A stretch of DNA of 58,161 nucleotides, from positions 1 to 58,161 of IMG/VR virus record IMGVR_UViG_3300049048_000078; one strand, written 5' to 3'. A program made the position numbers and the translations under genes. Shown here in pieces: positions 1 through 58,161 of the stretch. Numbering within the stretch: position 1 is the stretch's first letter; each line of letters begins with the position of its first letter. Source of the DNA: a virus. Under the pieces are notes generated by a model. The model saw only the letters and a program-made list of their open reading frames with translations. It made no database searches and was not told the DNA's origin.

Positions 1-350
1 ACGCCAAGGCCATCATTGCGTCCATCAAGAAGGGCGCCAAGTTCGAAGATATCGCCAAGAAGCAGTCCAAGGACCCAGGCTCCGGCGCCAAGGGTGGCGA
101 TCTGGATTGGGCCAATCCTTCCAGCTATGTGAGCGAATTCACCAACGCCCTGGTCAAGCTCGAAAAGGGCAAGATGACCGACACGCCCGTGAAGAGTCAA
201 TTCGGCTGGCACGTGATCCGTCTCGACGACATCCGCCAGGCCGAACTGCCCAAGCTGGAGGAAGTGAAGCCCCAGGTGGCGCAGCAGCTGCAGCAACAAA
301 AGCTGGCCAAGTTCCAGGAAGAGCTGCGCACCAAGGCCAAGGTCGAATAG
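1..350 (+). CDS. Peptidyl-prolyl cis-trans isomerase, parvulin (PpiC/SurA-like), C-terminal part
   Basis: This host gene enters from the left edge with its N-terminus missing. About 115 residues are visible, read from base 3 to a TAG at 348-350. The visible part has the parvulin pattern: FEDIAKKQSKDPGSGAKGGD, then FTNALVKLEKG, then the QFGWHVIRLDDI block that forms the end of the PPIase fold, followed by a lysine/glutamine-rich tail. PpiC-type proteins isomerise prolyl bonds and usually help fold periplasmic or outer-membrane proteins. A strong terminator follows about 50 bases after the stop. The gene lies outside the prophage. Whether a SurA-like N-terminal domain or signal peptide is present cannot be seen here. 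Confidence 0.93.
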   Translation, partial: AKAIIASIKKGAKFEDIAKKQSKDPGSGAKGGDLDWANPSSYVSEFTNALVKLEKGKMTDTPVKSQFGWHVIRLDDIRQAELPKLEEVKPQVAQQLQQQKLAKFQEELRTKAKVE

Positions 351-508: not shown

Positions 509-1321
509 TCAAGAACGCATCCAGACCACGCCAGTCAAAATCGCCAGCATCACCGGCTGATGCAGCATGTAATAGCTCAGGCTCCACCGCCCAAGACCCG
601 CCAGCAGTGCGCCTCCGGCAGGCAACTGCCATTGCAATAAGGCGGGACGATGCGCCAGTAACCATTGCCCGCTGGCCAGCCCCCACCACATGACTCCCAA
701 CCAGGGGAGCACGGGAACATAGTCTTCGGTGTAGGGCTTGCGTGCCACCAGGCCCAGCCAATTCAAAGCCCGGCTGTTGAACCACGGGGCCAGTTCGGCC
801 AGCGCACCGGAACCGGATAGCAGATCGTGCGCCAGAGGAGGCAACATAACGGCAACCAGCCCTGCCAGCCAGAGCCAACGGCCCCAACCCGCCGTACAGC
901 GGGCAACGACAAGCATGACCGCCATGCCATGCAGCACGCCGAAGTAGATGAAGCTTCGCGGGAACATGATGGCGGAGCCCAGCGTGACCAGCAAGGCGCA
1001 AAAAGCAATCTGCGCCCACCTCCGGCCAAACCGCGCCCAGCCCTGCCCTTGGTGCAACGCGATGGCCTGACCCAGCCCGGCGCAAAAAAGAAAAAGACTG
1101 ACGATGCCAGTGCGCTGCAGGGTCCAGAACGGATCGGTACGAAAGTCCTGGGGCCAAAACCCCAAATGGCTCAGGTCAAAGCAAAAGTGAAAGATCGTCA
1201 TCCACACCATGGCAAGACCCCGCAAGGCATCTACCAAGTCATAACGGCGCGAGGAGGTGGGGGCTGTGGCAGGGGCTAACGAAGGCATCGCACGGATCAT
1301 GGCTTTGCGCTGAGATGGCAT
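509..1321 (-). CDS. DUF1624 / heparan-alpha-glucosaminide N-acetyltransferase-like membrane protein
   Basis: A 270-residue integral membrane protein with about seven hydrophobic segments. After a short cytoplasmic N-terminus comes RYDLVDALRGLAMVWMTIFH, the signature start of the DUF1624/HGSNAT-like acyltransferase family. His residues in the first helix (FHFCFDLSHLGF) fit the family's acyl-transfer site. The C-terminal helix SLSYYMLHQPVMLAIL is also typical. Family members transfer acyl groups across the membrane, but the substrate here is unknown. Internal Met codons at residues 8 and 12 are alternative starts. This is the last host gene before the attachment site and is transcribed toward the isomerase gene. 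Confidence 0.85.
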   Translation of the reverse strand: MPSQRKAMIRAMPSLAPATAPTSSRRYDLVDALRGLAMVWMTIFHFCFDLSHLGFWPQDFRTDPFWTLQRTGIVSLFLFCAGLGQAIALHQGQGWARFGRRWAQIAFCALLVTLGSAIMFPRSFIYFGVLHGMAVMLVVARCTAGWGRWLWLAGLVAVMLPPLAHDLLSGSGALAELAPWFNSRALNWLGLVARKPYTEDYVPVLPWLGVMWWGLASGQWLLAHRPALLQWQLPAGGALLAGLGRWSLSYYMLHQPVMLAILTGVVWMRS

Positions 1322-1449
1322 GGGCGACGGGTTGCAGGAGCCAATGGCGGCAGGGAATCAATGCATCCCGCCGAATTCAACGGAATCTACCGCATTCATC
1401 GCATCCGGCAATCTACGGGCATCCGCACCAGCCCATGATGGAAATGAAA

Positions 1450-1479
1450 AAGGCCCTGCAACAGATGCTGCAGGGCCTT
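1450..1479 (-). terminator. Terminator downstream of the tRNA-Pro 3' end
   Basis: A perfect stem AAGGCCCTGCA/TGCAGGGCCTT with a short loop is followed on the minus strand by a run of five T. It sits just past the CCA end of the tRNA-Pro fragment, so it was the natural terminator of that tRNA transcript before the prophage separated the two halves. Confidence 0.8.
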
Positions 1480-1486
1480 CAAACAT

Positions 1487-1536
1487 TGGTCGGAGCGGCG
1501 GGATTCGAACTCGCGACCCTCTGCTCCCAAAGCAGC
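1487..1536 (-). other. attL: truncated 3' end of tRNA-Pro(UGG)
   Basis: Read on the minus strand, this stretch gives an anticodon loop TTTGGGA (anticodon UGG, proline), a T-arm with GTTCGAAT, the 3' acceptor strand and an encoded CCA (TGG at 1487-1489 on plus). No matching D-arm or 5' acceptor strand exists to the right, so only the 3' half is present. Phage integration into tRNA 3' ends leaves such a fragment at one end while the other end carries the intact tRNA. The crossover core therefore lies within this segment. The homology breaks in the anticodon stem near 1536, where phage DNA begins. The intact tRNA-Pro and the integrase are expected beyond the right edge of the window. Confidence 0.85.
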
Positions 1537-1630: not shown

Positions 1631-1930
1631 TTAGACAGCCTTCGCCTGCAGGTGCGCAATTGTGTTCTGCCGAATCATCATCTTCACCTGCTGCTCAAAG
1701 TCGGTACGTGCCTTGTCCATGGGGCTCTGATCCACCTGCTTGCACATATGCAAATACTTAGCCAGCAGATCCTGCTTGTCCTTGGATTGCGATGTGGCAG
1801 CAAAGAGCAGCGCTGCCTGCGATTCGGCATTGAGCAAGGCCTGATTGACTTTGTCCGTCAACACAAATACCTGCTCCTTGAGCGCCTTAACTTCTTCTTG
1901 TAGCGCTTTGATCTGTTCGTCCTGTGTCAT
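1631..1930 (-). CDS. Small coiled-coil protein of unknown function
   Basis: A 99-residue soluble protein. Residues 1-60 form a strong heptad pattern (EQIKALQEEVKALKEQV, then LTDKVNQALLNAES) predicting a coiled coil. The C-terminal half is charged, with a QQVKMMIRQNTIAHL segment. I recognise no family. Its start overlaps the stop of the SRAP gene by four bases (ATGA), so the two are translationally coupled and would share the SOS-type promoter upstream of the SRAP gene. It is the last phage gene before the attachment site, the usual place for lysogenic accessory genes. Confidence 0.75.
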   Translation of the reverse strand: MTQDEQIKALQEEVKALKEQVFVLTDKVNQALLNAESQAALLFAATSQSKDKQDLLAKYLHMCKQVDQSPMDKARTDFEQQVKMMIRQNTIAHLQAKAV

Positions 1931-10582: not shown

Positions 10583-12397
10583 TCAGGCGTTGACCACCTG
10601 AGTCAGGCTGGCGGACCCGCTGATGCTGGCCGAGGTGTTCACGATGTTCCAGGCCGAAGCGACGTTCTGCGACATCACCTGGGCACCGACCTTCGCTGCG
10701 TCGAGGCGGGCATCGTTGGTGTGCATCACCGCATCCTGGTTGATCTTGGCCGTCTGCAGCACGATCGAGCGCGCGCTCTCGTACTGCTTCATGTTGGCCT
10801 CCCACATGCGGGCATAGAGTTCGGCCTGGGCCTGGCTGGCCGTGACGCCGATCTTGTAGCCGTCGACCAGGATGTTCGACTGCCGGGCCGCCGCTTCCAC
10901 GCGCGCGCTTTCGGCAGAGATCAGAGAGCGGAAGCCCTCCCACTCCAGGCCCTTAGCGGACACCATGGCCTGGAACTGGGCCACCTGGACACGTGCGCGC
11001 TCTGCCTGCGCGCCAGCCTTCGCGCTGTAGGCCTGCGCCTGGGTGCGGTAGCCGTCCAGCAGCAGAGAGTCGGCGCTGATCTTCGCCTTGTGCAGTTCGA
11101 CCTTCGACATCTCGGCATTGGTCACGGCCACGAAGGCTTTCACCTGCTCGCCGGCCGTGGCCATGCGAGTGCGCTCCAGCTCCACCAGCGTCTGGGCGGC
11201 GCTGACCTGAGCTTTGAAAATCTCCACGTTCGCCATGGCCCCTTCGATCTGCACCTTGTACTGCTGGACCAGCGCGGTGTTGATCTGCGCCTTGAGTTCT
11301 TCGGCCTGCAGTAGCGCCTTGAACACCTCGACCTTGGAGAGCTCGGATTTGATCAGCGTGTCGTAGGCGCTGGCGTAGGCTTGATAGCCCGCGAGCAGGG
11401 CCTTGTAATGCTCCACCGAGCTGTTGAAGACCTGGATCTCGTTTTCTGCGAGCGCCTTGGCGGCCTCGAAAGCCAGCAATTCGATCTTGTAGGCGTGCTC
11501 CAGCAGCTGGGACTCCAGGCCGATGGCCGAGTCAATGGCGTGCTTGAGGTTGTCCTGCTCCAGCTCGGCCTGCTTGATGGCGATGTCCCGCGAGAGGCCG
11601 GAGAGCTTGTCGTAGTACTCGCGCTGCGCGTCTGCCAGCTGGCCTGCGAGGACGCCCGACGGGAGCGGGTAGCCCAGCGCCTCAGCGCCGCGCATCACTT
11701 CCGCCTGCCGCGCCAGCGCGATCTGCGTTTCCCGGTCACGGCCTCGATCAAAAATGGCTTGTTCAACGACGGGGTTGAGGCCGGTGCCACCCTGCAGGCG
11801 GGACGCGATCAGGGCCTTCACGCTGTCCATCAGCTGGGATGCGTACCCCGGCCCCCGGGTGTACTGCAGCTTGGTGGGCGCGAGGATGCTCAGCTCCGGG
11901 ATTTCGTCGAGCTTGTCGAGCCAGTCTTCGTGCAGGTTGATGCCCCCAAAGGTGTGCGTGGTCAGCGACAGCAATTCCGGCGTGTCGGGCAGCACAACGG
12001 CAGGCGCATCGGGCACGGCCACGTCCCGAATTTCGGGCAGCGTGGGCACGGTGCCGAAGTTCACTTCGGGCGCTGGGCCCGCGGTCAGGGTCGGGACCGG
12101 CACATCGAAATCATCGATCTGCACCGCGCCCAGCGTTTCATTGAAGGCGGAGGGAACGGCCCCGGGCACGTTGAACGCGATCTCCGGTACCGTGGGCATG
12201 TTGGGGATGCTGGCCAGGGTCGGCGCTGGCAGCGTCTGCCAGGTCACGCTCACGGTGGGTGGCGCGTAGATGCTCGCGTTCAGCTTGTCGATGAACGTGC
12301 CCATCTGGTCTTTGGCGGACTCCGCGAGTTCCACCGATCGGTTGTAGGCATCCTCGACGATGGATGCTGGGCCGTCAAAATCGAGTGCCATGGTCAT
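10583..12397 (-). CDS. Large helical virion protein of unknown function
   Basis: 604 residues. The N-terminal 170 residues are rich in Pro and beta segments (PTVSVTWQTLPAPTLASIPN, VPDAPAVVLPDTPELL). The remainder is almost wholly alpha-helical, with long Ala/Glu/Lys/Gln runs such as SKVEVFKALLQAEELKAQIN and AQVSAAQTLVELERTRMATA, predicting an extended coiled coil. No enzyme motif. Its place among tail genes suggests a tail-tube, fibre-shaft or ejected virion protein. The ATG overlaps the preceding stop (ATGA). An ATG two codons later is possible. Confidence 0.65.
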   Translation of the reverse strand: MTMALDFDGPASIVEDAYNRSVELAESAKDQMGTFIDKLNASIYAPPTVSVTWQTLPAPTLASIPNMPTVPEIAFNVPGAVPSAFNETLGAVQIDDFDVPVPTLTAGPAPEVNFGTVPTLPEIRDVAVPDAPAVVLPDTPELLSLTTHTFGGINLHEDWLDKLDEIPELSILAPTKLQYTRGPGYASQLMDSVKALIASRLQGGTGLNPVVEQAIFDRGRDRETQIALARQAEVMRGAEALGYPLPSGVLAGQLADAQREYYDKLSGLSRDIAIKQAELEQDNLKHAIDSAIGLESQLLEHAYKIELLAFEAAKALAENEIQVFNSSVEHYKALLAGYQAYASAYDTLIKSELSKVEVFKALLQAEELKAQINTALVQQYKVQIEGAMANVEIFKAQVSAAQTLVELERTRMATAGEQVKAFVAVTNAEMSKVELHKAKISADSLLLDGYRTQAQAYSAKAGAQAERARVQVAQFQAMVSAKGLEWEGFRSLISAESARVEAAARQSNILVDGYKIGVTASQAQAELYARMWEANMKQYESARSIVLQTAKINQDAVMHTNDARLDAAKVGAQVMSQNVASAWNIVNTSASISGSASLTQVVNA

Positions 12398-46854: not shown

Positions 46855-46925
46855 ATCTTAAGCGCAACGCTTATTTTTAGTCAAGCGCCGCGCTTCTTCA
46901 TCTTTTTAAGCGCTCCGCTTCTAAT
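46855..46925. promoter_or_regulatory. OR-like operators with divergent promoters
   Basis: Three 13-bp operators of consensus AAGCG(C)NNCGCTT: 46860-46872, 46883-46895 and 46908-46920, spaced 23 and 25 bases. Leftward promoter: -35 TTGACT (46879-46884), -10 TAAGAT (46855-46860), 18-base spacer. Rightward promoter toward the CI-like gene: weak -35 near 46897, -10 TCTAAT (46920-46925), nine bases from the ATG at 46934. The same operators recur at 49845-49901. Confidence 0.82.
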
Positions 46926-46933
46926 CACTTCCA

Positions 46934-47353
46934 ATGAAGACCGTCGCTGAGATCCGTCGAGAAAAGTTAGAAATGCTGGCGCAGGAACTGGGGACAGTTG
47001 ATGCTGTTGCGGAGAAGGCAGGTACCTCGGCGGTCTATCTGAGCCAGATCAAAAATCGTGCGGTGGACTCGAAGACCGGGCGCCCACGAGAAATGGGAAC
47101 CACCCTCGCTCGCAAGCTCGAGAGTGGTTGTGGGAAGCCACCAGGATGGATGGATACAGACCCAAGTCCTGCGAAAGAAGCTTCAAGCGCAGCCATAGCT
47201 CTGCAGGAATGGGCTGAAACGGCTAGCCCTCGCTCACGCGAAGTAATAGACCAGCTCCGAATGCTGGCGCAAAAGAATGCACTGGGGGATGAAGAGTGGG
47301 ATCTGATCAGCCAACTAGCACTGCGCTTTCAGTTGAAAGCGAAGAAGAAATAG
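46934..47353 (+). CDS. CI-like lysogeny repressor without protease domain
   Basis: 139 residues. The N-terminal domain (VAEIRREKLEMLAQELGTVD AVAEKAGTSAVYLSQIKNRA) is a helix-turn-helix of the lambda-repressor type. The remainder (helices with SRPREMG-like linker, then EVIDQLRMLAQKNALGDEEW DLISQLALRF) has no Ala-Gly cleavage site or S24 Ser/Lys pair. It therefore should not be cut by RecA. Release may depend on the two antirepressors. It lies between OR-like and OL-like operators. Its 3' end is overlapped by 58 bases by the kinase gene. Confidence 0.82.
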   Translation: MKTVAEIRREKLEMLAQELGTVDAVAEKAGTSAVYLSQIKNRAVDSKTGRPREMGTTLARKLESGCGKPPGWMDTDPSPAKEASSAAIALQEWAETASPRSREVIDQLRMLAQKNALGDEEWDLISQLALRFQLKAKKK

Positions 47354-48195
47354 GCTCTGCCAACGACAGCACTTTCGGCCTGGCGCCAAAACCTGTCAGG
47401 GTGCTGCGGTTGAACCGTGGTGCCGAACGCATAGAGCGCGCGCGTGAGGAAAGCAAGGACGACGAGCTCTGGCTGGGCAGCGCTTACGACCCGAATGACG
47501 CCGACAGCGACGATATCGGCGTTTATGTTCGCATTGCCAACCCCATGCCCGTGGTCGCAGAACTGATGTGTGCGGTGATCGGCCGCTCCTTGGGCCTCCC
47601 TGTCCCCGAGCCTTTTCTGGTGAGCATTGACAAGGGGGGGCTTTCCGACTCTCGCCTGCTCCCCCAAGAGAAACCTGCCCTTGCCTTCGCCAGCCTGAAT
47701 GTGGGCGGGCAAACCTTCAGCCAGCTGCTACGCGGAGACAGCCCCACGATGCGGGCAATGCTCATGAAGTGGGAGCATATGATTCCAGTGGCCACCTTCG
47801 ACGAGTGGATGGCAAACAGAGACCGGAACCTCAGCAACATCCTCTTCGTGGCAAATGTGCTGTGGATCATCGACCACGCAGAGGCCTTCCATGGCAAAGC
47901 ACGCGGCCTGTTCGGGCTGTCCGAACTGATCGAAGATCCGAGTTCCAACGTCCTAGGGGACATCCTTGCCAAGTGCACCCCCGCTGAGTGCGCTGTTCAT
48001 TTGGAGGCGGCCCAGTCGTGGCTTTCCAAAACAGCCTTTCAAGTCGACATTCAGGAGGCTGCTACGTGTGCTGACATCGATCACTGGCAGACAGCCGAAC
48101 AGAAGGCGGAATTGCTAGACTTCGTCACCCAACGACTCACCCTCACGCACCGTCTGCTATGCACCCGTCTGGGCCACCCTCAGTTACTCCCTTGA
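47296..48195 (+). CDS. HipA-like protein kinase
   Basis: 299 residues, beginning inside the repressor gene in another frame. KPVRVLRLNRGAERIERAR then DDIGVYVRIANPMPVVAELM CAVIGRSLGLPVPEPFLVSI is the N-lobe pattern of the HipA-like (PF20613-type) kinases. The catalytic loop is FDEWMANRDRNLSNILF (about residues 168-184) and the metal-binding motif is WIIDHAEAF (about 191-199). Such kinases phosphorylate unknown proteins, and HipA itself inactivates a tRNA synthetase. The deep overlap with the repressor means it is made in the lysogen. The first 40 residues may not all be translated if a later start is used. Confidence 0.8.
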   Translation: MGSDQPTSTALSVESEEEIGSANDSTFGLAPKPVRVLRLNRGAERIERAREESKDDELWLGSAYDPNDADSDDIGVYVRIANPMPVVAELMCAVIGRSLGLPVPEPFLVSIDKGGLSDSRLLPQEKPALAFASLNVGGQTFSQLLRGDSPTMRAMLMKWEHMIPVATFDEWMANRDRNLSNILFVANVLWIIDHAEAFHGKARGLFGLSELIEDPSSNVLGDILAKCTPAECAVHLEAAQSWLSKTAFQVDIQEAATCADIDHWQTAEQKAELLDFVTQRLTLTHRLLCTRLGHPQLLP

Positions 48196-49064
48196 TTCAC
48201 GCGATCTCCGCCAGGAGCGGGCGTGTCTCCGGCCAACGGGCGGTCATCGAGTTCTCCCCAAAACTGGTCTCTATTGAGAAGCTGTGCGCCGGCGTCGTCT
48301 TGCGCACAGACGGCGGGGATGTCGTCACTGGCTGCGCGCTGGACAAGCGCAAGCTTTCACATGCCTTCGGTGAGCCTGGAGTGGCGCTGTTCGAGATCGC
48401 CAATGTGCTCTGCGAGTCGTTGGCCATGCATTGGCGATCCACTGGGAGCGCCGAGGGATGGGTGCCCCCCTTTGAAGGTGCCAAGATCGCGCGCCTGAGC
48501 GAGTTCACCGCTAAGGATGCCGCGTCGGCAATCGCCCAGATCAACGACCACCACAGCACATTGAATACCCTCCTCCATGGGTACGAGATCACGGAAATTT
48601 CTCGTGCAACCAACATCGTGGAGCGAGTCCGCGGCGCGGTGAAGCGCGATGCCAATGCGCGGCACCTGGAGAAGCGTTTCAACCGGGTGCTGACCGTAGG
48701 CGCAGGAGCGGCGCCGATGCGGGTCGACTTCCTCGGTCAGAACTTTGCGTGCTACTTCATCCAGATCGTACGCAGCCCGCGCCACGGGGAGATGAACACG
48801 GAGCGCGCCCTTGGCAAGATCTACGAATTGGAGTTACTCCGTAAATTTGTCCACAAGCCTAAGAAGAGCCTTGGGCTGCTCGATGAAGAGCGTCCCCAGG
48901 CCTTCGAACTTGTGATGGTGGGCGACCGCAACAATGCCATTCAGCAGCGCATCGTGTACCAGATCGAGGCAATGGCTGACAGAAGCGCCGTTCGGGCTCG
49001 GCTGCTCCCAGACCCGACGACCGCTGCGGCGCATGTCTCAGATCGTGAGCGCCTGGCCGCGTAG
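48159..49064 (+). CDS. Partner of the HipA-like kinase (DUF3037-like N-terminus)
   Basis: 301 residues, starting 37 bases inside the kinase gene. The segment QRAVIEFSPKLVSIEKLCAG VVLRTDGGDV resembles the start of DUF3037 proteins (R.Y.P....E..N.GVVL), which often follow HipA-like kinases in bacteria. The rest is longer than that family: a helical middle with VERVRGAVKRDANARHLEKR and a C-terminal domain with ARHGEMNTERALGKIYELEL-like sequence (NTERALGKIYELELLRKFVH). No catalytic motif is recognised. It probably modulates, or is a target of, the kinase. The family link is only a pattern match. Confidence 0.65.
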   Translation: MHPSGPPSVTPLIHAISARSGRVSGQRAVIEFSPKLVSIEKLCAGVVLRTDGGDVVTGCALDKRKLSHAFGEPGVALFEIANVLCESLAMHWRSTGSAEGWVPPFEGAKIARLSEFTAKDAASAIAQINDHHSTLNTLLHGYEITEISRATNIVERVRGAVKRDANARHLEKRFNRVLTVGAGAAPMRVDFLGQNFACYFIQIVRSPRHGEMNTERALGKIYELELLRKFVHKPKKSLGLLDEERPQAFELVMVGDRNNAIQQRIVYQIEAMADRSAVRARLLPDPTTAAAHVSDRERLAA

Positions 49065-49554: not shown

Positions 49555-49764
49555 ATGAAATTCGAGTACTACAACACTGGTCCGAAAGGCCTGCTGGCTG
49601 CGGCTTCCGGCGAAAGAGGAAGCTGGCGTTGGCGCTTTGTTGCGAACAACGGAGAGACCGTTGCCAGCGGCGAGGCTTACGTGAACAAAGCTGATTGCTT
49701 GAGAGCGATTGCACTGCTCAAGTCCACTCACGCACTTACGCCGGTGGTCGAAACGAACAGCTAA
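49555..49764 (+). CDS. DUF1508 (YegP-like) small protein
   Basis: 69 residues. GSWRWRFVANNGETVASGEA YVNKADCLRAIALLKS is the DUF1508 domain (WRWRL.A.NGe.ia.s..Y..k..c..aI..v...), a small beta-beta-alpha fold. One copy is present, while E. coli YegP has two. Function unknown in the family, stress-linked expression is reported for some members. It sits between the lysogeny operon and the OL region, ending in a strong terminator. Confidence 0.8.
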   Translation: MKFEYYNTGPKGLLAAASGERGSWRWRFVANNGETVASGEAYVNKADCLRAIALLKSTHALTPVVETNS

Positions 49765-49784: not shown

Positions 49785-49810
49785 AAAACCGCCCATGAGG
49801 CGGTTTTTTT
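49785..49810 (+). terminator. Terminator after the DUF1508 gene
   Basis: Stem AAAACCGCC/GGCGGTTTT with loop CATGA and a run of seven T. It ends the rightward lysogeny transcripts 35 bases before the OL-like operators, isolating them from PL. Confidence 0.88.
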
Positions 49811-49844
49811 GTCGCCCCGCCCAGGCTAGGCCCGGGATACAGTT

Positions 49845-49906
49845 TAGCGCCACGCCTAAATATATGAAGCGCCACGCTTGACTTTATTAAGCGCTACGCT
49901 TACAGT
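49845..49906 (+). promoter_or_regulatory. OL-like operators with early promoter PL
   Basis: Three operators like those at 46.9 kb: TAGCGCCACGCCTA (49845-49858, weaker), AAGCGCCACGCTT (49867-49879) and AAGCGCTACGCTT (49889-49901), spaced about 22 bases. A strong rightward promoter has -35 TTGACT (49878-49883) and -10 TACAGT (49901-49906), 17-base spacer, overlapped by the second and third operators. The shared operators make this the second arm of a lambda-type switch. Confidence 0.85.
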
Positions 49907-49944
49907 ACATCCCAACGCACCACCCAACCCCGGGCCGGTGCGGT

Positions 49945-50156
49945 GGAGAGAGCAGATAGGTGTGGCGGCGACGAAGCACGGGAAACCTGCAACGGGGTCG
50001 CAAGACAGCCGAGAAGCCGGGAGTCGATACCCGGGGAAGATTTGGAGTCCATGCCCCAGGCGGCGCGAAAGCGCGGGAGGCATGGCTTGTGGGGCACGTC
50101 AGACAGTGCCATAGCCGGGAATGGCCGTCCGGCCCACACCTACCTGCTCTCTCTCC
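49945..50156 (+). ncRNA. Large structured leader RNA of the PL operon
   Basis: A 212-nt unit closed by a long stem: 49945-49965 pairs with 50134-50156 (about 20 pairs, one mismatch, one 2-nt bulge). Inside are five further helices in a row: GCGAC/GTCGC (49968-50001), CCGGG/CCCGG (50017-50034), CCATGCC/GGCATGG (50049-50085) enclosing GCGC-GAAA-GCGC with a GNRA tetraloop (50063-50074), GGCAC/GTGCC (50093-50110) and CCGG/CCGG (50115-50132). It begins about 30 bases after the PL start and ends 18 bases before the first gene. No long reading frame fits. By position it could be a processive antitermination RNA (put-like), a riboregulator or a trans-acting RNA. Confidence 0.7.
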
Positions 50157-50174
50157 GATCAACAAGGAGAGACC

Positions 50175-50366
50175 ATGCAGAACATTCACCCGACGATGCG
50201 CCCGTTCGTGGCGCCCTGGGCTCCAAAGGAGCCGGTAGACCCGCTCCAGGCCGCCCGCGCCGAAGACTGGGCAGCGGTCCAGCAGGCCGAAGCCCAAGAC
50301 CCTCGCCTGCTGCGCGCCCTGCGTGATCAGCAGCAGTACCTGCAGAACACGGGGGTGTTGTCGTGA
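50175..50366 (+). CDS. Small hypothetical early protein
   Basis: 63 residues: MQNIHPTMRPFVAPWAPKEP, then an acidic helical tail (AEDWAAVQQAEAQDPRLLRA LRDQQQYLQNTG). Ribosome site AAGGAGAG lies 6 bases before the ATG, right after the structured leader. First protein of the PL operon. It might be a small early regulator or antitermination factor, but nothing in the sequence proves it. Confidence 0.62.
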   Translation: MQNIHPTMRPFVAPWAPKEPVDPLQAARAEDWAAVQQAEAQDPRLLRALRDQQQYLQNTGVLS

Positions 50367-50674
50367 AGGCACTTCGTGAATCGTTGGCGCGAGTGCGCGA
50401 AACGTGCCCTGCAGTTGACGGAGCTGCCAGCGCCTTTGCAAGCGCGGTCGAGAGCGACATCCGAATGCACTTGGATGTCCTGGTGACCAGCGTGAAAGTG
50501 CAGACAACCACTCTCCGCGACGCATTCATTGAAGCGCTGAACGAGCGCAATGAGGCCCGCGAAGAGCGCGACGCTGCACAAGCAGAAGTCGAATCCCTGC
50601 AGACCCAATTGGCCGAGCGCGACGCCCAGATTCAAGAACTGCGCGCTCAGATCCATGCACTGGAGGCCGCATGA
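50363..50674 (+). CDS. Small coiled-coil early protein
   Basis: 103 residues. Residues 1-50 are helical (MKALRESLARVRETCPAVDG), and residues 55-103 are a strong coiled coil (NERNEAREERDAAQAEVESL QTQLAERDAQIQELRAQIHA). Such short coiled-coil proteins occur in early operons without known role. Start and stop overlap neighbours. Confidence 0.62.
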   Translation: MKALRESLARVRETCPAVDGAASAFASAVESDIRMHLDVLVTSVKVQTTTLRDAFIEALNERNEAREERDAAQAEVESLQTQLAERDAQIQELRAQIHALEAA

Positions 50675-51039
50675 ACACCCCCCTCACCCCCCGCGACATC
50701 GCCGCCATGACGGCGCACGCCGCTGGCATCAAGGCTGAGAACGTGGCGCCGGTCATGCCGACCCTGCATGTGTTCTCGCAATACGCGGAGATCGAACTGC
50801 GTACCGCCGATGGGCGAACCGTCGCTGTTCTCAGCCAGCACTTCGCAAACATCGCCCGCCGTCTGGCGGCCTGCTGGAACGCTGCTGGTGACACGCCCAC
50901 GGAGACGCTGGAGTCCTGCGCGCATTGGTCCGACATCGTGAAGTCGCCATTGAGCCACCGCCAGCACATCCCAGCTGAGGCAGCCGCTGTCGGCGCTGCG
51001 CTGGATTCCGAATCTCTTGAACAAGGCGAGGTGCTGTGA
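50671..51039 (+). CDS. Hypothetical early protein
   Basis: 122 residues. A middle part, LHVFSQYAEIELRTADGRTV AVLSQHFANIARRLAACWNA, is alpha/beta and may be the folded core. The ends are loose. Phrases such as (L.LTR.F..NA.RI.ACVNA.AG) are seen in unrelated phage proteins. No function assigned. Ends in a TGATG overlap with the next gene. Confidence 0.6.
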   Translation: MNTPLTPRDIAAMTAHAAGIKAENVAPVMPTLHVFSQYAEIELRTADGRTVAVLSQHFANIARRLAACWNAAGDTPTETLESCAHWSDIVKSPLSHRQHIPAEAAAVGAALDSESLEQGEVL

Positions 51040-51278
51040 TGCCCCCACTTGAAAACATCAAATTCGCCGCTGCCGTCCTGGCGGTCGTGCTCGCCCTGGG
51101 CTGCGGCCATTACTTGGACGGTGCCCCATCCGACATGCAGGCTGAAGAAGCCACGGCCGCCAGCTTGCGCGATGCGCTCGCCCAGGCCCAAGCCGAGCGG
51201 CCTGACCTGTGGACGCCAGAGCGCCGTGCACGCGCCGCAGCGGCTGCTGGGCTGGTGGCACGGGGAGTGCAGCCATGA
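51039..51278 (+). CDS. Small membrane or lipoprotein, early region
   Basis: 79 residues. One hydrophobic segment (IKFAAAVLAVVLALGCGHYL) ends with L-G-C, which may be a lipobox or part of an anchor. The remainder is helical and Ala-rich (ATAASLRDALAQAQAERPDL). Early phage membrane proteins can act in exclusion or host takeover, but no homologue is recognised. Overlaps the next gene by four bases. Confidence 0.58.
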   Translation: MPPLENIKFAAAVLAVVLALGCGHYLDGAPSDMQAEEATAASLRDALAQAQAERPDLWTPERRARAAAAAGLVARGVQP

Positions 51279-52240
51279 GCGCAAACACCAAGATCGAATG
51301 GTGCGACCACACCTTTAACCCCTGGGAAGGCTGCCAGGAGACTAGCCCGGGTTGCAAAAACTGCTACGCCGAGGCACGCAACGCCCGCTTCGGCGGCGGC
51401 ACAGCCATCAACTTCGGCCCAGGCGCACCCCGCCGCCGCACCAGTGCCGCCAACTGGGCAATGCCCAAGCGCTGGAACGCCCAGGCCGACGCCTTCCTGG
51501 CCCAGCACGGCCGCCGCCAGCGGGTGTTCTGCGCCTCGCTGGCCGACGTGTTCGACAACGCGGTGGACCCGCAGTGGCGCGCCGACCTGTTCAGCCTGAT
51601 CCAGCAAACCCCCAACCTTGACTGGCTGCTGCTCACCAAGCGCATCGGGAACGTGCGTGGAATGCTCGCCGAACTGGCCCACGGCAGCGACCCCGACCTG
51701 ACGTTGCTGGACATGATGCCGCTGCCCAATGTGTGGCTGGGCGCGACCATCGTGAACCAGACCGAGGCCGACCGCGACATCCGCAAGCTGCTGGATGTGC
51801 CCGCGCGCGTGCGTTTCCTGAGCATGGAGCCACTGCTGGGCCCCGTGTCGTTCGAAGGTCTGTTCGCCGACCCGCACGACGTGCGCGACGGCACCAACAT
51901 GGTGGAGGCACTGGACTGGGTCATCGTCGGCGGCGAAAGCGGTCCTGGCGCCCGACCCATGCACCCCGACTGGGCCCGCAGCCTGCGCGACCAGTGCGAG
52001 GCCGCTTGCACGCCTTTCCTGTTCAAGCAGTGGGGCGAGTGGACTCCTGGCGAGAACGTTGAGCGCCAGCGCGGGACTGTGGATACCGCCTTCCTCCTTG
52101 AGGACGGCTGGCACATCTGCCCGCTGAACCTAGCGACCGATGACGGCCATATCGACGATGAGCCAGACCTCTATCGGGTCGGCAAGAAGGAGGCCGGCCG
52201 CCTGCTGGACGGCCGTACACACGACGACTTCCCAACATGA
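51275..52240 (+). CDS. Phage Gp37/Gp68 family protein (DUF5131)
   Basis: 321 residues. The start TKIEWCDHTFNPWEGCQETS PGCKNCYAEA carries the three-Cys cluster of the Gp37/Gp68 (DUF5131) family. Family landmarks also include CASLADVFDNAVDP, WLLLTKRIGNV, LPNVWLGATIVNQTEAD and LDWVIVGGESGPGARPMHPD WARSLRDQC. The CxxxxxGCxxCYA cluster resembles iron-sulfur ligands of radical SAM-type proteins. Activity in the family is unknown. Found in many phages and mycobacteriophages near replication genes. Confidence 0.9.
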   Translation: MSANTKIEWCDHTFNPWEGCQETSPGCKNCYAEARNARFGGGTAINFGPGAPRRRTSAANWAMPKRWNAQADAFLAQHGRRQRVFCASLADVFDNAVDPQWRADLFSLIQQTPNLDWLLLTKRIGNVRGMLAELAHGSDPDLTLLDMMPLPNVWLGATIVNQTEADRDIRKLLDVPARVRFLSMEPLLGPVSFEGLFADPHDVRDGTNMVEALDWVIVGGESGPGARPMHPDWARSLRDQCEAACTPFLFKQWGEWTPGENVERQRGTVDTAFLLEDGWHICPLNLATDDGHIDDEPDLYRVGKKEAGRLLDGRTHDDFPT

Positions 52241-52329
52241 AAGCCGGCCTCGCCTTCTCCGCCTGGCTCCTGGCCACTTCCGCTGCCCTCGCCTTCTACA
52301 TGGCGTGGGTGCATCAGCCCTTTCTCTGA
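52237..52329 (+). CDS. Tiny membrane protein (30 residues)
   Basis: MKAGLAFSAWLLATSAALAF YMAWVHQPFL: one membrane helix and little else. Its ATG overlaps the stop of the Gp37/Gp68 gene (ATGA) and the stop lies 23 bases before recT, in the operon's path. Size alone makes it uncertain. Confidence 0.5.
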   Translation: MKAGLAFSAWLLATSAALAFYMAWVHQPFL

Positions 52330-52352
52330 CACCTGAACCACTGAGGACCCAC

Positions 52353-53360
52353 ATGACCGCATCTACAACCACCGAACAACACGCGCTTGCCCTCAGCGGC
52401 GCCAGCAGCACAGGCCTGGTGCTCAGCAACGACACCATGGAGAAGGCCTTCCGCATGGCAGAGCTCATGGCTTCCGGCAAGAGCACGGTGCCCCGTCACC
52501 TGCAAGGTAGCCCGGCGGACTGCATGGCAGTCACGCTGCAAGCGCTGCAGTGGAACATGTCGCCCTTCGCGGTGGCGCAAAAGACTCACATCGTGAACGG
52601 CACGCTCGGCTACGAGGCGCAGCTGGTGAATGCAGTGCTGCAGTCCACTGGCGCCATCGTGGGCGAGTTCGAGTACGAATACCAGGGCACCGGGAACGAG
52701 CTGCAGTGCCGTGTCGGCGCGATCCCTCGCGGCAAGGGCGCAATCAAGTGGGGCGAGTGGCTGTCCATCAAGGACGTCACCACCAAGAACTCCCCGCTGT
52801 GGAAGACGAACCCCAAGCAACAGATGGGGTACCTGCAGGTCAAGAACTGGGCCCGCGCATTCAAGCCGGGCGCCATTTTGGGGGTCTACACCCCAGACGA
52901 GCTGGAAGTCTCCGGAGGCATCAAGGACATGGGCCCCGCCGACGAGGTGAAGCCGGAGCTCACCCCCTACCCCGCCGAGCAGTTCGCCGCAAACCTGCCG
53001 AAGTGGCGCGAGGTCATCCAGGGCGCCCGCAAGACGGCAGACGACCTGATCGCCTTCACGGAATCGCGCAACCCCAACACGCCGATGACCGAAGAGCAGA
53101 AGGCCACGTTGCGCGGCTTCAAGCCGGTGAAGAACGCGGCGGCCACCGATGTGCAGCCCAAGGGCGAAGCAGCAGCGCCAGCAGCTGAGCCGGGCCCCGC
53201 CATCACCTTCGGCGAGGCGAACGACAAGTTGAACGCCGCGAAGGATGTGGACGCCCTGAACGTGGCCGCCGACCTGATCGCCCAGGTGGCGGACGCACAG
53301 CAGCAGGCCGAGCTGAACGCGATTTACGAACAACGCAAGTTCGCGCTCGAAGCCGAGTAA
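52353..53360 (+). CDS. recT: RecT-family single-strand annealing recombinase
   Basis: 335 residues. Core RecT features: a helix before MAELMASGKSTVPRHLQGSP ADCMAVTLQALQWNMSPFAV AQKTHIVNGTLGYEAQLVNA VLQ, then EWLSIKDVTTKNSPLWKTNP KQQMGYLQVKNWARAF and the end VYTPDEL. RecT coats single strands and anneals them, working with the exonuclease encoded two genes on. The last 80 residues are a flexible tail with low-complexity Ala/Pro. Ribosome site GAGGA precedes the ATG. Confidence 0.93.
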   Translation: MTASTTTEQHALALSGASSTGLVLSNDTMEKAFRMAELMASGKSTVPRHLQGSPADCMAVTLQALQWNMSPFAVAQKTHIVNGTLGYEAQLVNAVLQSTGAIVGEFEYEYQGTGNELQCRVGAIPRGKGAIKWGEWLSIKDVTTKNSPLWKTNPKQQMGYLQVKNWARAFKPGAILGVYTPDELEVSGGIKDMGPADEVKPELTPYPAEQFAANLPKWREVIQGARKTADDLIAFTESRNPNTPMTEEQKATLRGFKPVKNAAATDVQPKGEAAAPAAEPGPAITFGEANDKLNAAKDVDALNVAADLIAQVADAQQQAELNAIYEQRKFALEAE

Positions 53361-53873
53361 GTGGAGATTGCTGTGGATATGGAACGTATCAAGCGAATGC
53401 TCAGCTACGAGCCCTCCACCGGAGTGTTCACGTGGCTCTGCAACCGCAAGGGCGGCAGCGCTCGAGTGGGTGCCGTTGCTGGATGTCGGCGATCGGACGG
53501 TTATGTGCACATCGTCATTGATAGCGAGCGCAACTATGCGCACCGCCTGGCATGGCAGATGGCCGTTGGACCCATCCCAGCTGGGATGGAAATTGACCAC
53601 ATTGACCACGACCCAAGCAACAACACGCTGAACAACCTACGACTCGTCACGAAGGCGGGGAACCGAAGGAACCGCTCCCGCGATTCACGTAACACGTCGG
53701 GAGTCAACGGCGTGTTTTGGGCTGCGCATGCAAAAGCCTGGAGCGCACAGATTCGCGTCGACCGCAAAACGCACCACATCGGCTACTTCAAGGATTTGGA
53801 AGCCGCTGCGACAGCGAGAAAAAAGGCAGAGGCCGAGTTCGGCTTTCACGAAAACCACGGGAAGAAATCATGA
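53361..53873 (+). CDS. HNH endonuclease with AP2 DNA-binding domain
   Basis: 170 residues, using a GTG at 53361 (an ATG at 53379 is possible). The N-terminal part LSYEPSTGVFTWLCNRKGGS and YAHRLAWQMAVGPIPAGMEI DHIDHDPSNNTLNNLRLVTK is the HNH core of phage free-standing endonucleases. SGVNGVFWAAHAKAWSAQIR VDRKTHHIGYFKDLEAAATA is an AP2-type DNA-binding domain. It lies between recT and the exonuclease with no gap, a typical site for a homing-type selfish gene. It overlaps the exonuclease start by four bases. Confidence 0.9.
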   Translation: MEIAVDMERIKRMLSYEPSTGVFTWLCNRKGGSARVGAVAGCRRSDGYVHIVIDSERNYAHRLAWQMAVGPIPAGMEIDHIDHDPSNNTLNNLRLVTKAGNRRNRSRDSRNTSGVNGVFWAAHAKAWSAQIRVDRKTHHIGYFKDLEAAATARKKAEAEFGFHENHGKKS

Positions 53874-55705
53874 CACCACTGAAAAGCGCCCCTCAAGGGT
53901 CCAGCGCATGGCACGCCGCCCGCGCGCAGCACTTCTGCGCATCCGAAGCCTCCGCCGCCATGGGGGCCTCCAAGTACACGACCCGCGACGCGCTCCTGCA
54001 CCAGAAAGCGACAGGCGTGACGGAAGAGGTCACGCCCGCTAAGCAGGCCCTGTTCGATGCCGGGCACGAAGCGGAAGCCCTGGCCCGCCCCATCGCCGAA
54101 CGCATCGCTGGCGTTGAGCTTTCACCGATCGTGGGTACGCTTGAAATCGACGGCATGAAGCTGCTCGCCAGCTTCGACGGCATCGACCTGATGGACGAGG
54201 TCATCTGGGAGAATAAGCTGCTGAACGCCTCGCTGGTCGAGCAGGTGAAGGCTGGCGAGCTCGACCAGCACTATTGGGCCCAACTGGAACACCAGCTCCT
54301 GGTCAGCGGGGCGCATCGCGCTCTGTTCACCACCAGTGATGGCACGGAGGATGGCACACACCACCTCTGGTATGAGTCAGTGCCCGAGCGCCGTGCGCAG
54401 CTGATCGGCGCATGGAAGCAGTTTGCGGCCGATCTGGTCGCCTACGTGGCCCCCGAGGCAAAGCCCGCCCCCGTGGTCGCCGCCCCCATGGAAACACTGC
54501 CCGCAGTCTCCGTTCGCGTGGACGGCCAGCTCGCCATCATCTCCAACCTGCCCGCCTTCGGCACCGCGCTGCGCAACTTCATCGACCGCATCCCGGCCAA
54601 GCCCAGCACCGACCAGGAATTCGCCGACACCGAAGCCGCCTGCAAGGCGCTGAAGCAGACCGAAGACGCGCTGGAAGCCGCAGAGAGCAACGCCCTCGCG
54701 CAGCTGGCCGACGTGGACACCATGCGCCGCTTCGTGGCCGACTACCGGGCCCTGGCGCGCACGACGCGGCTGCAGCGGGAAAAGCTGGTGGCGCAGCGCA
54801 AGGAGGAAATCCGGGGCGAAATCGTGGCCGGTGGCGTCACCGCGCTGCGCGAGCACATCGCCGCCCTGAACACCCGCCTTGGCAAGACCTACATGCCCCA
54901 GGTGGCTGCCGACTTCCAGGGCGCCATCAGGGGCAAGCGCACCGTGGACAGCCTGCGCGGCGCGGTGAACGATGAGCTGGCCCGCGCCAAGATCGCGGCC
55001 AACGAGATCGCAGCCCGCATCCAGCTGAACCTGAACACCCTGCGCGAGCACGCCGCAGAGCATGTGTTCCTGTTCGCCGATGCCCCGCAGTTGGTCATGA
55101 AGGCCAACGACGACCTGCTGGTGCTGATCAAGTCGCGCATCGGAGACCACGAAGCAAAGAAGGCCGCCGAGTTGGAAGCCGAGCGCGAGCGCATCCGCGC
55201 CGAAGAGCAGGCCAAGGCACAGCGCGAAGCCCGCGAGGCCGAAGCAAAGCGCGAGCGGGAGCGCCAGGAAGAACAGCGCCAGCAGGCTCTGGAGGCTGAG
55301 CGCGAAGCTCAAGCCGGTATCGCTGCAGCGCGCGCCGAAGAGGCATTGCCCGCCCCGCTGCTGGACGACCTGTCGAGCTTGGCCAAGGACCTGAAGGACG
55401 ACATCGTCTCCAACATCGACGCCGAACAGGCCATCAGCGCGGCCCAGCGCACGGCAGCTGCTGCGCAAGTGGTCGCCCCGCTGCGCCCCGCCGCCGTCGC
55501 GCCGACCACGCCGCCCTCGCTCAAGCTGGGCCAGATCGCCGAGCGCTTGGGCTTCGCGCTGTCCGCCGACTTCCTGCGCGGCCTGGGCTTTGAGCCTGCC
55601 GCGAAGGTTGGCGCGCATGGGGTCTACCACGAGGCCCAGTTCCCCCACATGTTGGCCGCCCTGGTGCGCCACATCGAGGGCGTGCAGGCCAAGGCCGCCG
55701 CCTGA
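53870..55705 (+). CDS. YqaJ-type phage exonuclease with long C-terminal extension
   Basis: 611 residues, almost three times a lambda Exo (226). The YqaJ domain occupies about residues 1-200: GSSAWHAARAQHFCASEASA AMG, then LFDAGHEAEALARPIAERIA (catalytic Glu helix), LLASFDGIDL and VIWENKLLN (the acidic and Lys residues of the PD-(D/E)xK site). Residues 215-430 are helical and 430-490 form a dense Glu/Arg/Ala coiled coil (ELEAERERIRAEEQAKAQRE). A final small domain (LKLGQIAERLGFALSADFLR) resembles a helix-turn-helix. It makes 3' single strands for RecT. The extension may link the two or bind host factors. Confidence 0.88.
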   Translation: MTPLKSAPQGSSAWHAARAQHFCASEASAAMGASKYTTRDALLHQKATGVTEEVTPAKQALFDAGHEAEALARPIAERIAGVELSPIVGTLEIDGMKLLASFDGIDLMDEVIWENKLLNASLVEQVKAGELDQHYWAQLEHQLLVSGAHRALFTTSDGTEDGTHHLWYESVPERRAQLIGAWKQFAADLVAYVAPEAKPAPVVAAPMETLPAVSVRVDGQLAIISNLPAFGTALRNFIDRIPAKPSTDQEFADTEAACKALKQTEDALEAAESNALAQLADVDTMRRFVADYRALARTTRLQREKLVAQRKEEIRGEIVAGGVTALREHIAALNTRLGKTYMPQVAADFQGAIRGKRTVDSLRGAVNDELARAKIAANEIAARIQLNLNTLREHAAEHVFLFADAPQLVMKANDDLLVLIKSRIGDHEAKKAAELEAERERIRAEEQAKAQREAREAEAKRERERQEEQRQQALEAEREAQAGIAAARAEEALPAPLLDDLSSLAKDLKDDIVSNIDAEQAISAAQRTAAAAQVVAPLRPAAVAPTTPPSLKLGQIAERLGFALSADFLRGLGFEPAAKVGAHGVYHEAQFPHMLAALVRHIEGVQAKAAA

Positions 55706-55735
55706 TCAACGCGCCCCCAAGCACCGAAAGCACAC

Positions 55736-57640
55736 ATGAGCACTGCAGAAATTCGCCACTTCCACCTGTTCTGCGGCCTGGGCGGCGGCGCCAAAGGCTT
55801 CAACCAGGCCCGGCCGCGCGTTGGCAACATGGTCGCGCAGTTCCGCTGCATCGGCGGCATCGATGTGGACGCGGCCAGCATCCGCGACTTCGGGCGCCTC
55901 ACAGGTGTGCCCGGCACTGTGCTGGACCTGTTCGACCGGGACCAGTACCGGGACTTCCACGGCGCTGAGCCGCCGGCCGACTGGCGCGAGGCGGGCACGG
56001 CCGATATCCACCGTGCGGCCGGCGGCGAGCGTCCGCACATCGTCTTCCTCAGCGCGCCGTGCAAAGGGTTCTCCGGCCTCTTGTCCGAGGGCAAGAGCAA
56101 GACCGACAAGTACCAAGCCCTGAACCGCCTCACCGTGCGCGGCGTCTGGCTGATGCTCGAGGCATGGCGCAACGACCCGCCGGAGCTGATCATTTTCGAG
56201 AACGTGCCCCGCATCGCTACACGCGGCCGGCACCTGCTTGACCAGATCGTCGACCTGCTCCGCGCCTATGGCTACGCGGTGGCAGAAACCACCCACGACT
56301 GCGGCGAGCTGGGCGGCCTGGCTCAGAGCCGCAAGCGCTTCCTGCTGGTGGGCCGCCACATCGAGAAGGTGCCGCCCTTCCTGTACGAGCCCCACAGCCG
56401 CCCGCTGCGCGCTGTGGGCGATGTGCTCGGCCGCATGCTGTTGCCCGGCGACCTGCGCGGCGGCCCCATGCACCGAATCCCCGCGCTGCAGTGGAAGACC
56501 TGGGTGCGCCTGGCCTTTGTCGAGGCCGGCAGCGACTGGCGCTCCCTCAACCGTCTGGCGGTCGAGAACGGCCAGCTGCGCGACTACCTGATCGTGCCCG
56601 AGAACCGGAACAGCGGCTTCCTGGGCGTGGGCCGCTGGGATTCACCGCGCGGGACCGTCACCGGCCGAAGCCTGCCCAACAACGGTGACTTTGCCATCGC
56701 AGACCCGCGCCAACAGCTCTACGCCGCCGGCTATGGGGTCACCCCATGGGGCGCTGCCAGCGGCGCGGTGGCTGGCGAGTCCCTCCCCTCCAATGGCAAG
56801 TTCGCCGTGCAAGACCCACGCTTCGTGCAGTCGGCAAAGTGGAAGGATGGCCAGGCGCTGGGCGTGCGCACCTGGGACGAGCACACCGGCGCCATCGCTG
56901 GCCAGCAGTCGCCGGGCCAGGGCGCGTACAGCGTCGCGGACCCGCGCCACACCGGCCCCGCGAAGCACTCGAACGAGTTCCGCATCGTGCGCTGGGACAA
57001 GGCTGCGATGGCCGTCACCAGTGCCCACGGCACGGGCCAAGCCGTGGCCGACCCGCGCGGTGGTCCAGATCCTGACTTGCTGCATGGCAAGTACCCCATC
57101 ACCGGCTGGGACGAAACCGCGCGCACCGTGATCGGTGGAAACGCCAACGGCGCGTTCGCTGTGGCCGATCCCCGCAGCGGCATGCAGCGCGGCAAGGGCG
57201 ACAACTACCTCACTGCCGGCCACTACGGCGTCGTGCCCTGGACCGGCCCATCGGGCGCAGTGAGCGCAGCTGCTGGCCACGACAACGGCCGCTGGAGCGT
57301 GGCCGATCCACGGATGCCGGAGCCCGGCGAAAAGCTGGTTTGCCGCATCACGGCCGAGGACGGCACGTGGCACCGCCCCTTCACCACGCTGGAGCTGGCC
57401 GCGCTGCAGTCGCTGGTGGACCCGGAAGAGCTGCTGGAACTTGACGGGCTCAGCGACCAAGCATGGAGAGAGCGCATTGGAAACGCAGTGCCCAGCTCGG
57501 CGGCCGAGGCCATCGCGCACGTCATGGGCGAGACGCTGCTGCTGGCATGGTCTGGCGAAACATTCCTGCTGTCGGCCCAGCCCATCTGGGTGCGGCCGAT
57601 TGCGCTGGGCGTGGCCATGGGGAGCAGACATGAGCAATGA
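55736..57640 (+). CDS. C5-cytosine DNA methyltransferase with six internal repeats
   Basis: 634 residues. Motif I FHLFCGLGGGAKGF is at residues 9-22. Motif IV SAPCKGFSG has the catalytic Cys near 109. Motif VI ENVPR is near 155. Motif VIII AQSRKRFLLVG follows, and motif X RIGNAVPSSAAEAIA lies near the C-terminus. Between VIII and X, at about 290-530, the usual target-recognition domain is replaced by six repeats of roughly 37 residues with consensus (Y/F)xVxxWD..xGAVxGxxxxNGxFAVADPR. DNA specificity is probably set by this array. A lone phage enzyme like this would protect phage DNA. It ends 11 bases inside the next gene. Confidence 0.88.
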   Translation: MSTAEIRHFHLFCGLGGGAKGFNQARPRVGNMVAQFRCIGGIDVDAASIRDFGRLTGVPGTVLDLFDRDQYRDFHGAEPPADWREAGTADIHRAAGGERPHIVFLSAPCKGFSGLLSEGKSKTDKYQALNRLTVRGVWLMLEAWRNDPPELIIFENVPRIATRGRHLLDQIVDLLRAYGYAVAETTHDCGELGGLAQSRKRFLLVGRHIEKVPPFLYEPHSRPLRAVGDVLGRMLLPGDLRGGPMHRIPALQWKTWVRLAFVEAGSDWRSLNRLAVENGQLRDYLIVPENRNSGFLGVGRWDSPRGTVTGRSLPNNGDFAIADPRQQLYAAGYGVTPWGAASGAVAGESLPSNGKFAVQDPRFVQSAKWKDGQALGVRTWDEHTGAIAGQQSPGQGAYSVADPRHTGPAKHSNEFRIVRWDKAAMAVTSAHGTGQAVADPRGGPDPDLLHGKYPITGWDETARTVIGGNANGAFAVADPRSGMQRGKGDNYLTAGHYGVVPWTGPSGAVSAAAGHDNGRWSVADPRMPEPGEKLVCRITAEDGTWHRPFTTLELAALQSLVDPEELLELDGLSDQAWRERIGNAVPSSAAEAIAHVMGETLLLAWSGETFLLSAQPIWVRPIALGVAMGSRHEQ

Positions 57641-58161
57641 CAAGGAACGCGAGGAGCGCGACTGGTGGCGCAAGCCTGCAGACGAAATTGAGGCGCGAGT
57701 AGCGGCCTCTGGCAGCCAGGAGGCAATGCGCTGCTACACAGACATGCGCGCGCTCTTGCAAGAGGTGGCACGCGCATCTCTGGCAGCAAGTGCGAGGAGT
57801 GAGCCTGTGTCGTTCACGGCCGAGCATGTGGCCTACATCAACCGGTACGGCGGTCGGTGCCGCGACTGCGCCGACGAGAACGGCGTTTGCCCTGGGCGCG
57901 GGCTGCCTTGTGAAGGCGCGCCGAAGGCAATCCAGTTCGTGCTGGAGGCGCTGGCGTATGGGATCAACAACGGCTATATCAGCGCTCGTGTCCACCCCTC
58001 TCCACCAGAGGGAATGGTGGGAGGGTGGAGGCCGATTGAGACGGCTCCGAAAGGTGATGAATTTTTAGTGTGGGGAAAATACTTTGCATATGCTTTTTTG
58101 GTAAGTGTGCGCCAAGAAAAATTTGTGACAGCAGGGAAGGTTGTTATCACCAGTGCCACTC
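57630..58161 (+). CDS. Early protein with DUF551-like end, cut by the window edge
   Basis: The frame starts at ATG 57630 and remains open to the last base, so at least 177 residues are encoded and the stop is outside. The N-terminal half is helical (MSNDKEREERDWWRKPADEI, MRCYTDMRALLQEVARASLA). In the middle, GGRCRDCADENGVCPGRGLP C has four Cys that may bind a metal. GGWRPIETAPKGDEFLVW is the start of a DUF551-like domain common in phage early genes. From about 58050 the base composition becomes AT-rich, so the C-terminal part may be a recent acquisition. Confidence 0.72.
   Translation, partial: MSNDKEREERDWWRKPADEIEARVAASGSQEAMRCYTDMRALLQEVARASLAASARSEPVSFTAEHVAYINRYGGRCRDCADENGVCPGRGLPCEGAPKAIQFVLEALAYGINNGYISARVHPSPPEGMVGGWRPIETAPKGDEFLVWGKYFAYAFLVSVRQEKFVTAGKVVITSAT

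Follow-up and report, generated by a model that had tools for sequence, protein, structure and literature searches.

The early genes of lambdoid phages typically lie behind terminators, and put RNAs alone suffice for read-through; the put RNA of phage HK022 is about 70 nucleotides (nt) long and comprises two stem-loops (PMC9378689). GOLLD and ROOL are elaborate structured RNAs, some of them phage-borne, whose function is unsettled (PMC12286853). This study concerns the viral record IMGVR_UViG_3300049048_000078, of which positions 1 to 58,161 were analysed (the window, 58,161 nt), and in particular a 212-nt structured RNA domain at window positions 49945-50156, in the leader of the early operon transcribed from the promoter PL. 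Comparative sequence evidence indicates that this domain is almost certainly a member of a new structured-RNA family of about 190-210 nt. The name R1 is used for the RNA core of the window element and its relatives.

The window domain folds with a minimum free energy (MFE) of -114.9 kcal/mol (z = -3.75 against dinucleotide shuffles), and 0 of 200 dinucleotide shuffles folded equally well. The inverted repeat that closes it (49945-49965 with 50134-50154, the 3' arm extending on to 50156) is the sole one of comparable strength within 5 kilobases of the early leader; the long-range repeat described by the initial annotation (49945-49965 with 50134-50156) exists and dominates among the long-range repeats of that part of the window. 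The five consecutive internal helices of the same description were recovered as P2, P3, P4, P5 and P6, with compensatory support for all except P5, which shows hardly any covariation because it is almost invariant. The GAAA-capped hairpin was also found, and two GAAA loops are present, in P4a (50067-50070) and P2a (49982-49985). A pseudoknot of the P3 loop, a hairpin at the 5' end of the leader (49916-49942) and a hairpin covering the Shine-Dalgarno (SD) sequence of the first gene (50150-50172) had been missed. The domain has the following parts:

49945-49965, + strand: P1 closing helix, 5' strand; 8 of 12 inner pairs with double changes
49968-49972/49997-50001 (whole 49968-50001), + strand: P2; 100% paired, GCGAC/GUCGC versus GCACC/GGUGC
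49976-49990, + strand: P2a hairpin inside P2, GAAA loop 49982-49985
50005-50012, + strand: junction ACAGCCGA; mostly conserved and unpaired in the alignment
50017-50021/50030-50034, + strand: P3; CCGGG/CCCGG versus CGAGG/CCUCG
50024-50046, + strand: pseudoknot, P3 loop 50024-50027 with 50043-50046; 3 of 4 pairs with double changes in the family
50049-50053/50081-50085 (whole 50049-50085), + strand: P4; compensatory changes
50063-50074, + strand: P4a inside P4, GCGC-GAAA-GCGC, GAAA loop 50067-50070; compensatory changes
50093-50110, + strand: P5, GGCAC-GUCAGACA-GUGCC; nearly invariant
50114-50133, + strand: P6, GCCGGG...UCCGGC, adjoining the 3' strand of P1; one pair changes from C-G to A-U or G-U
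50134-50156, + strand: P1 closing helix, 3' strand; from the inverted repeat and the fold

The first homologue was the one match returned by blastn against 401 genomes of one family, and in it both P1 arms are almost wholly changed in sequence and still complementary. Conserved strings from this first pair matched nine, three and twelve viral-contig stretches; one of the set of three (L058) proved not to be a member. Strong members are present in 13 phage or prophage records (the window, L049-L057, L059, L082 and L083, with L044 and L053 counted once, as their RNA is identical), scoring 123-223 bits with a covariance model whose E-values were short-calibrated, at one strong match per record searched on both strands. 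One closely related leader is common to five of the 13 records, which brings the number of independent lineages below 13, and sampling by exact patterns under-counts more divergent members. Broad searches at family level (twice) and at order level returned one of about 400 genomes, the same genome every time, and the family therefore looks rare and narrow. A blastn search of phage and plasmid record collections gave no match covering the element, and the protein of the first early gene (gene 1), used as search bait, brought up nothing. The family belongs to temperate phages of Comamonadaceae-type bacteria, in which the RNA mostly lies close to where the early messenger begins.

The initial annotation had held that a lack of compensatory changes in homologous leaders would refute its reading; such changes were found in the family alignments. 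In the main alignment (nine sequences, 195 columns, 46 pairs including the pseudoknot), 97.6% of base-pair cells are paired, 19 of the 46 pairs carry compensatory double changes, and the covariation score is 0.425, against 0.145 for shuffled and at most 0.075 for slid versions. A model-fitted alignment of 14 rows, which leans towards structure by construction and whose last row is a weak match, gives 97.2% pairing and 22 pairs with double changes over 13 distinct rows. At least one double change was observed in each of P1, P2, P3, the pseudoknot, P4, P4a and P6. Pseudoknot cells are 92% paired across the family, and the pseudoknot is complete in L044 (CUAGC/GCUAG) and L049 (UUGAU/AUCAG), the window itself forming three of the four pairs. 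The sequence of P1 differs by lineage with near-perfect complementarity within each, and a Delftia-type subgroup lacks P2a. The family architecture is a long, sequence-variable closing helix around P2, P3 with its loop pseudoknot, P4, P5 and P6.

A translated reading frame through the element was a further refuting condition of the initial annotation; no frame is open in all members, with indels of 1, 2 and 14 nt in the family alignment, and a protein-coding gene was rejected on this ground. The domain had also been said to resemble no known RNA class, and Rfam 15 gave no match at the gathering threshold and none credible on the domain by E-value. No description of this RNA was found in the open-access literature.

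An operator-controlled promoter upstream of the domain and a gap of 18 bases to the first gene, both reported before, were confirmed by the features of the window leader:

49843-49860, no strand assigned: third operator, imperfect, TTTAGCGCCACGCCTAAA; read from the sequence
49867-49879, no strand assigned: operator AAGCGCCACGCTT, flanking PL
49878-49906, + strand: PL promoter TTGACT-17-TACAGT; -35 TTGACT at 49878, -10 TACAGT ending at 49906
49889-49901, no strand assigned: operator AAGCGCTACGCTT, inside PL
49916-49942, + strand: 5' leader hairpin CGCACC...GGTGCG; from folding
50150-50172, + strand: SD-covering hairpin TCTCTCC/GGAGAGA, 50150-50156 pairing with 50166-50172; from the full-leader MFE structure
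50175-50366, + strand: first early-operon gene, 63 amino acids (aa), no family; ATG at 50175, 18 bases after 50156

PL is the sole sigma70-like promoter found within 49800-58161. Upstream of the repressor gene (46934-47353), its operator element recurs three times, at 46860-46920, and because of this recurrence the layout, which resembles OL/OR, is sound. Several relatives have a similar 5' hairpin (CGCAGC...GCTGCG).

In every relative, the RNA lies on the strand of the genes that follow. In G403, G404, G406, G410 and G411, it is found 86-160 nt into a conserved leader, and these leaders follow candidate PL promoters unrelated in sequence: among G403, G404, G406 and G411, leader plus RNA are 88-100% identical and the promoters 27-40% identical, and leader plus RNA of G410 are 69-77% identical to those of the other four. 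Three of these phages (G404, G406 and G411, corresponding to L050, L052 and L057) are prophages of one genome, IMG taxon 641228489, presumably of Delftia acidovorans. In G405, the RNA is the second of two tandem P1-closed modules, and in G409 and G412 early genes follow it, with no promoter identified. The gene behind the RNA differs between lineages, so that no single product is linked to it. Of the 12 relatives, 11 have a strong co-directional intrinsic terminator some 17-28 nt ahead of a downstream gene's start codon (in G412, 83 nt separate the two and include a promoter-like stretch); as these terminators leave little room for promoters, the downstream genes probably need read-through.

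The location, the constancy under exchanged promoters, the indifference to the following gene and the terminators of the relatives suggest that the RNA affects the polymerase or the transcript and not a single gene. Judging from the sequences, we tentatively prefer, at a probability of roughly 0.4, a cis-acting leader RNA that affects transcript elongation in the manner of antitermination. The window RNA would be transcribed at once when PL repression is lifted and would act in cis: its conserved P5-P6 half and the junctions would serve as binding sites for RNA polymerase or a host elongation factor, and the bound complex would read past the terminators and polarity sites that separate the early genes, much in the manner of HK022 put but through a different RNA, with P1 as a clamp in which pairing matters and sequence does not. 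A cis or host-directed role is favoured because three prophages residing in one genome would hardly be expected to carry a trans-acting silencer of identical specificity.

Antitermination in the PL leader had been suggested by the initial annotation, and that suggestion gains circumstantial support from a leader that stays constant under unrelated promoters and from the terminators before the relatives' genes. Several observations weigh against it. No co-directional intrinsic terminator was found from the window RNA to the end of the record, and the covariance-model search on both strands found no second copy of the RNA in the PR operon. The RNA lies between early genes in four relatives (G407/G139, G408, L082 and L083). 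Phages with related repressors do not carry it, nor does the one phage retrieved with a 122-aa early protein as bait, which shares this early gene. Five relatives have, between the 5' hairpin and the RNA, a boxA-like element (TGGTCTTTAACAA) matching the rrn consensus at 12 of 13 positions, and by its sequence this element could be the actual antitermination signal; no boxA was found upstream of the window RNA, where the best match reaches 8 of 13.

A boxA-like element was also observed in the PL leaders of Burkholderia-type phages (L019, L021-L025, L028, L029 and L032), where one or two hairpins are followed, about 50 nt in, by CGCTCTYTAAC (perfect CGCTCTTTAACAA in L028, variant CGTTCTTTAACAA in L024); the leaders start near 9874 in L019 and at 10840-10900 in the rest. 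To judge by its sequence, it is likely a nut-like signal. Several of these leaders are very long (about 390-680 nt), structured and untranslated. Kinship with them (L021, L023-L025 and L028) was considered and rejected, since the covariance model finds no R1 core, and they therefore share at most the style of the leader. One Burkholderia-type phage has at L032 14321-14503 a strong Rfam match to RT-15 RNA (RF03018, 167 bits).

The same P1 sockets hold different cores. The P1 type GAGGGCTACAGAGAGATGCGG surrounds R1 in five phages, whereas in G405 it surrounds a core of 238 nt that the model matches only weakly. R1 of G405 is closed by CTGGTGTGATTTG, as is a 74-nt core of G410; GCCATCATTGAAGCGG and its variants close R1 in G409 and G412, and elsewhere cores of 93-145 nt; and in four records the GATTGCTTTGATGGGCGG type closes R1, in G408 a different core. 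The P1 types A-D are common to different cores, and one core occurs within at least five P1 types. Other P1-closed cores with these closing-helix types lie, relative to the R1 RNA, at -248..-11 and +1377..1521 in G405, -524..-322 in G408, +188..261 and +1668..1760 in G410, and +728..847 in G407. A UCARGC hairpin-loop motif shared at the P6 position of the other cores was considered and dropped, as it is not enriched (9 observed, 9 expected). In L082, adjacent spacers with and without the RNA share one SD-proximal sequence. It is possible, at somewhat lower odds than the cis-acting elongation RNA, that phages akin in their leaders carry interchangeable cores in conserved closing-helix sockets of the early transcript. 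R1 would then be a single allele in a modular RNA system that acts by a route of its own, on a host target or on the transcription machinery of the host, and has no kinship with nut, put or known phage RNAs.

The exchange of cores within the same P1 types would also be expected of specificity modules under diversifying selection, and thus of a stable RNA that acts in trans: freed by processing or by a terminator at the leader end, it would bind a host factor (as decoy, sponge or instrument of host takeover), the early operon being merely its promoter. The complex, highly conserved core with its pseudoknot and near-invariant P5, the presence of the RNA at other places of the early region, and the strong intrinsic terminator with which Delftia-type leaders end, some 190-400 nt beyond the RNA, and which would release it, fit such a role; however, no terminator was found after the RNA in the window, and in the loci read the RNA never has a promoter of its own. 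We regard this explanation as rather unlikely.

A mainly structural or selfish P1-closed cassette, shuffling among leaders by homologous recombination and at most shielding the messenger from RNases or Rho, would account for the sharing of P1 types and for the neighbouring spacers of L082. It is nevertheless improbable, since the RNA is always in one orientation and its pairs and unpaired sequence are strongly maintained across lineages, the latter indicating selection for a specific function.

More improbable still is translational control of gene 1, in which folding of P1, perhaps with a ligand, would compete with the SD hairpin (50150-50172) and expose or hide the ribosome site: the outer 3' arm of P1 is predicted to pair with the whole SD core of gene 1 (unpaired probability near 0 in the full-leader MFE calculation), and a short hairpin hides the SD in several relatives that have short leaders and related repressors, but the leaders of G407, G408, L082 and L083 show no evident competing pairing, Delftia-type phages have hundreds of nt between RNA and gene, and the controlled gene differs in each lineage. 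Inspection by eye of the other R1-bearing leaders showed no matching SD pairing, and an SD switch was rejected as the family-wide function.

Because several phages with related repressors and short leaders hide the first SD in a hairpin, early-gene translation may, on the modelled fold, be damped in the window lineage, separately from the R1 domain. Such short PL leaders, whose 5' end pairs with the first-gene SD, were observed in L003, L004, L012, L013, L014, L026 and L035, phages with related repressors; in L012, for example, the recurrent hairpin reads CCTCTCC...GGAGAGG. Elsewhere in the window, the repressor gene is followed at once, within the immunity region, by genes for a HipA_2-like kinase and a phrog_21150 protein (47296-49064), a DUF1508 gene (49555-49764) precedes PL, with a similar-looking protein at the same place in G404, and the early operon encodes a DUF5131/phrog_2045 protein (51276-52240).

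To our knowledge, very few cis RNAs alone alter the elongating polymerase, and put is the best-known phage example. As a cis-acting element, R1 would be a second, independent RNA solution besides put, larger and pseudoknotted, which betaproteobacterial phages have in their early leaders and keep constant while promoters change; as a trans-acting one, it would be a new phage RNA with a host target. In either mode, a missing family is added to RNA databases.

Among the described systems, a metabolite riboswitch was rejected, as the downstream genes differ by lineage and the SD pairing of the window is not seen in the leaders of other members. GOLLD and ROOL are several times larger than the R1 RNA, which differs from them in having no Rfam match. 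The lambda nut site (boxA and boxB with N) and the rrn boxA leader are comparable in the early-leader position and in the boxA-like element of five relatives, whereas the window lacks a boxA and the R1 domain differs from a boxB hairpin; no N family match was found among ten neighbouring window proteins, N proteins being quick to diverge. HK022 put has copies behind both PL and PR (putL and putR) and needs no phage protein for read-through, acting via the beta' zinc-binding domain. Like put, R1 is a structured RNA just after PL in a lambda-like early leader without an obvious N-like gene, and the early genes of its relatives also lie behind terminators. Going by the description of put, the R1 RNA is set apart by its 190-210 nt, long P1 and five internal helices with a pseudoknot, and by one copy per phage, sometimes between early genes, where put serves both PL and PR. 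By analogy, HK022 put is the closest working analogue of R1, from which R1 is separated by size, architecture and copy number.
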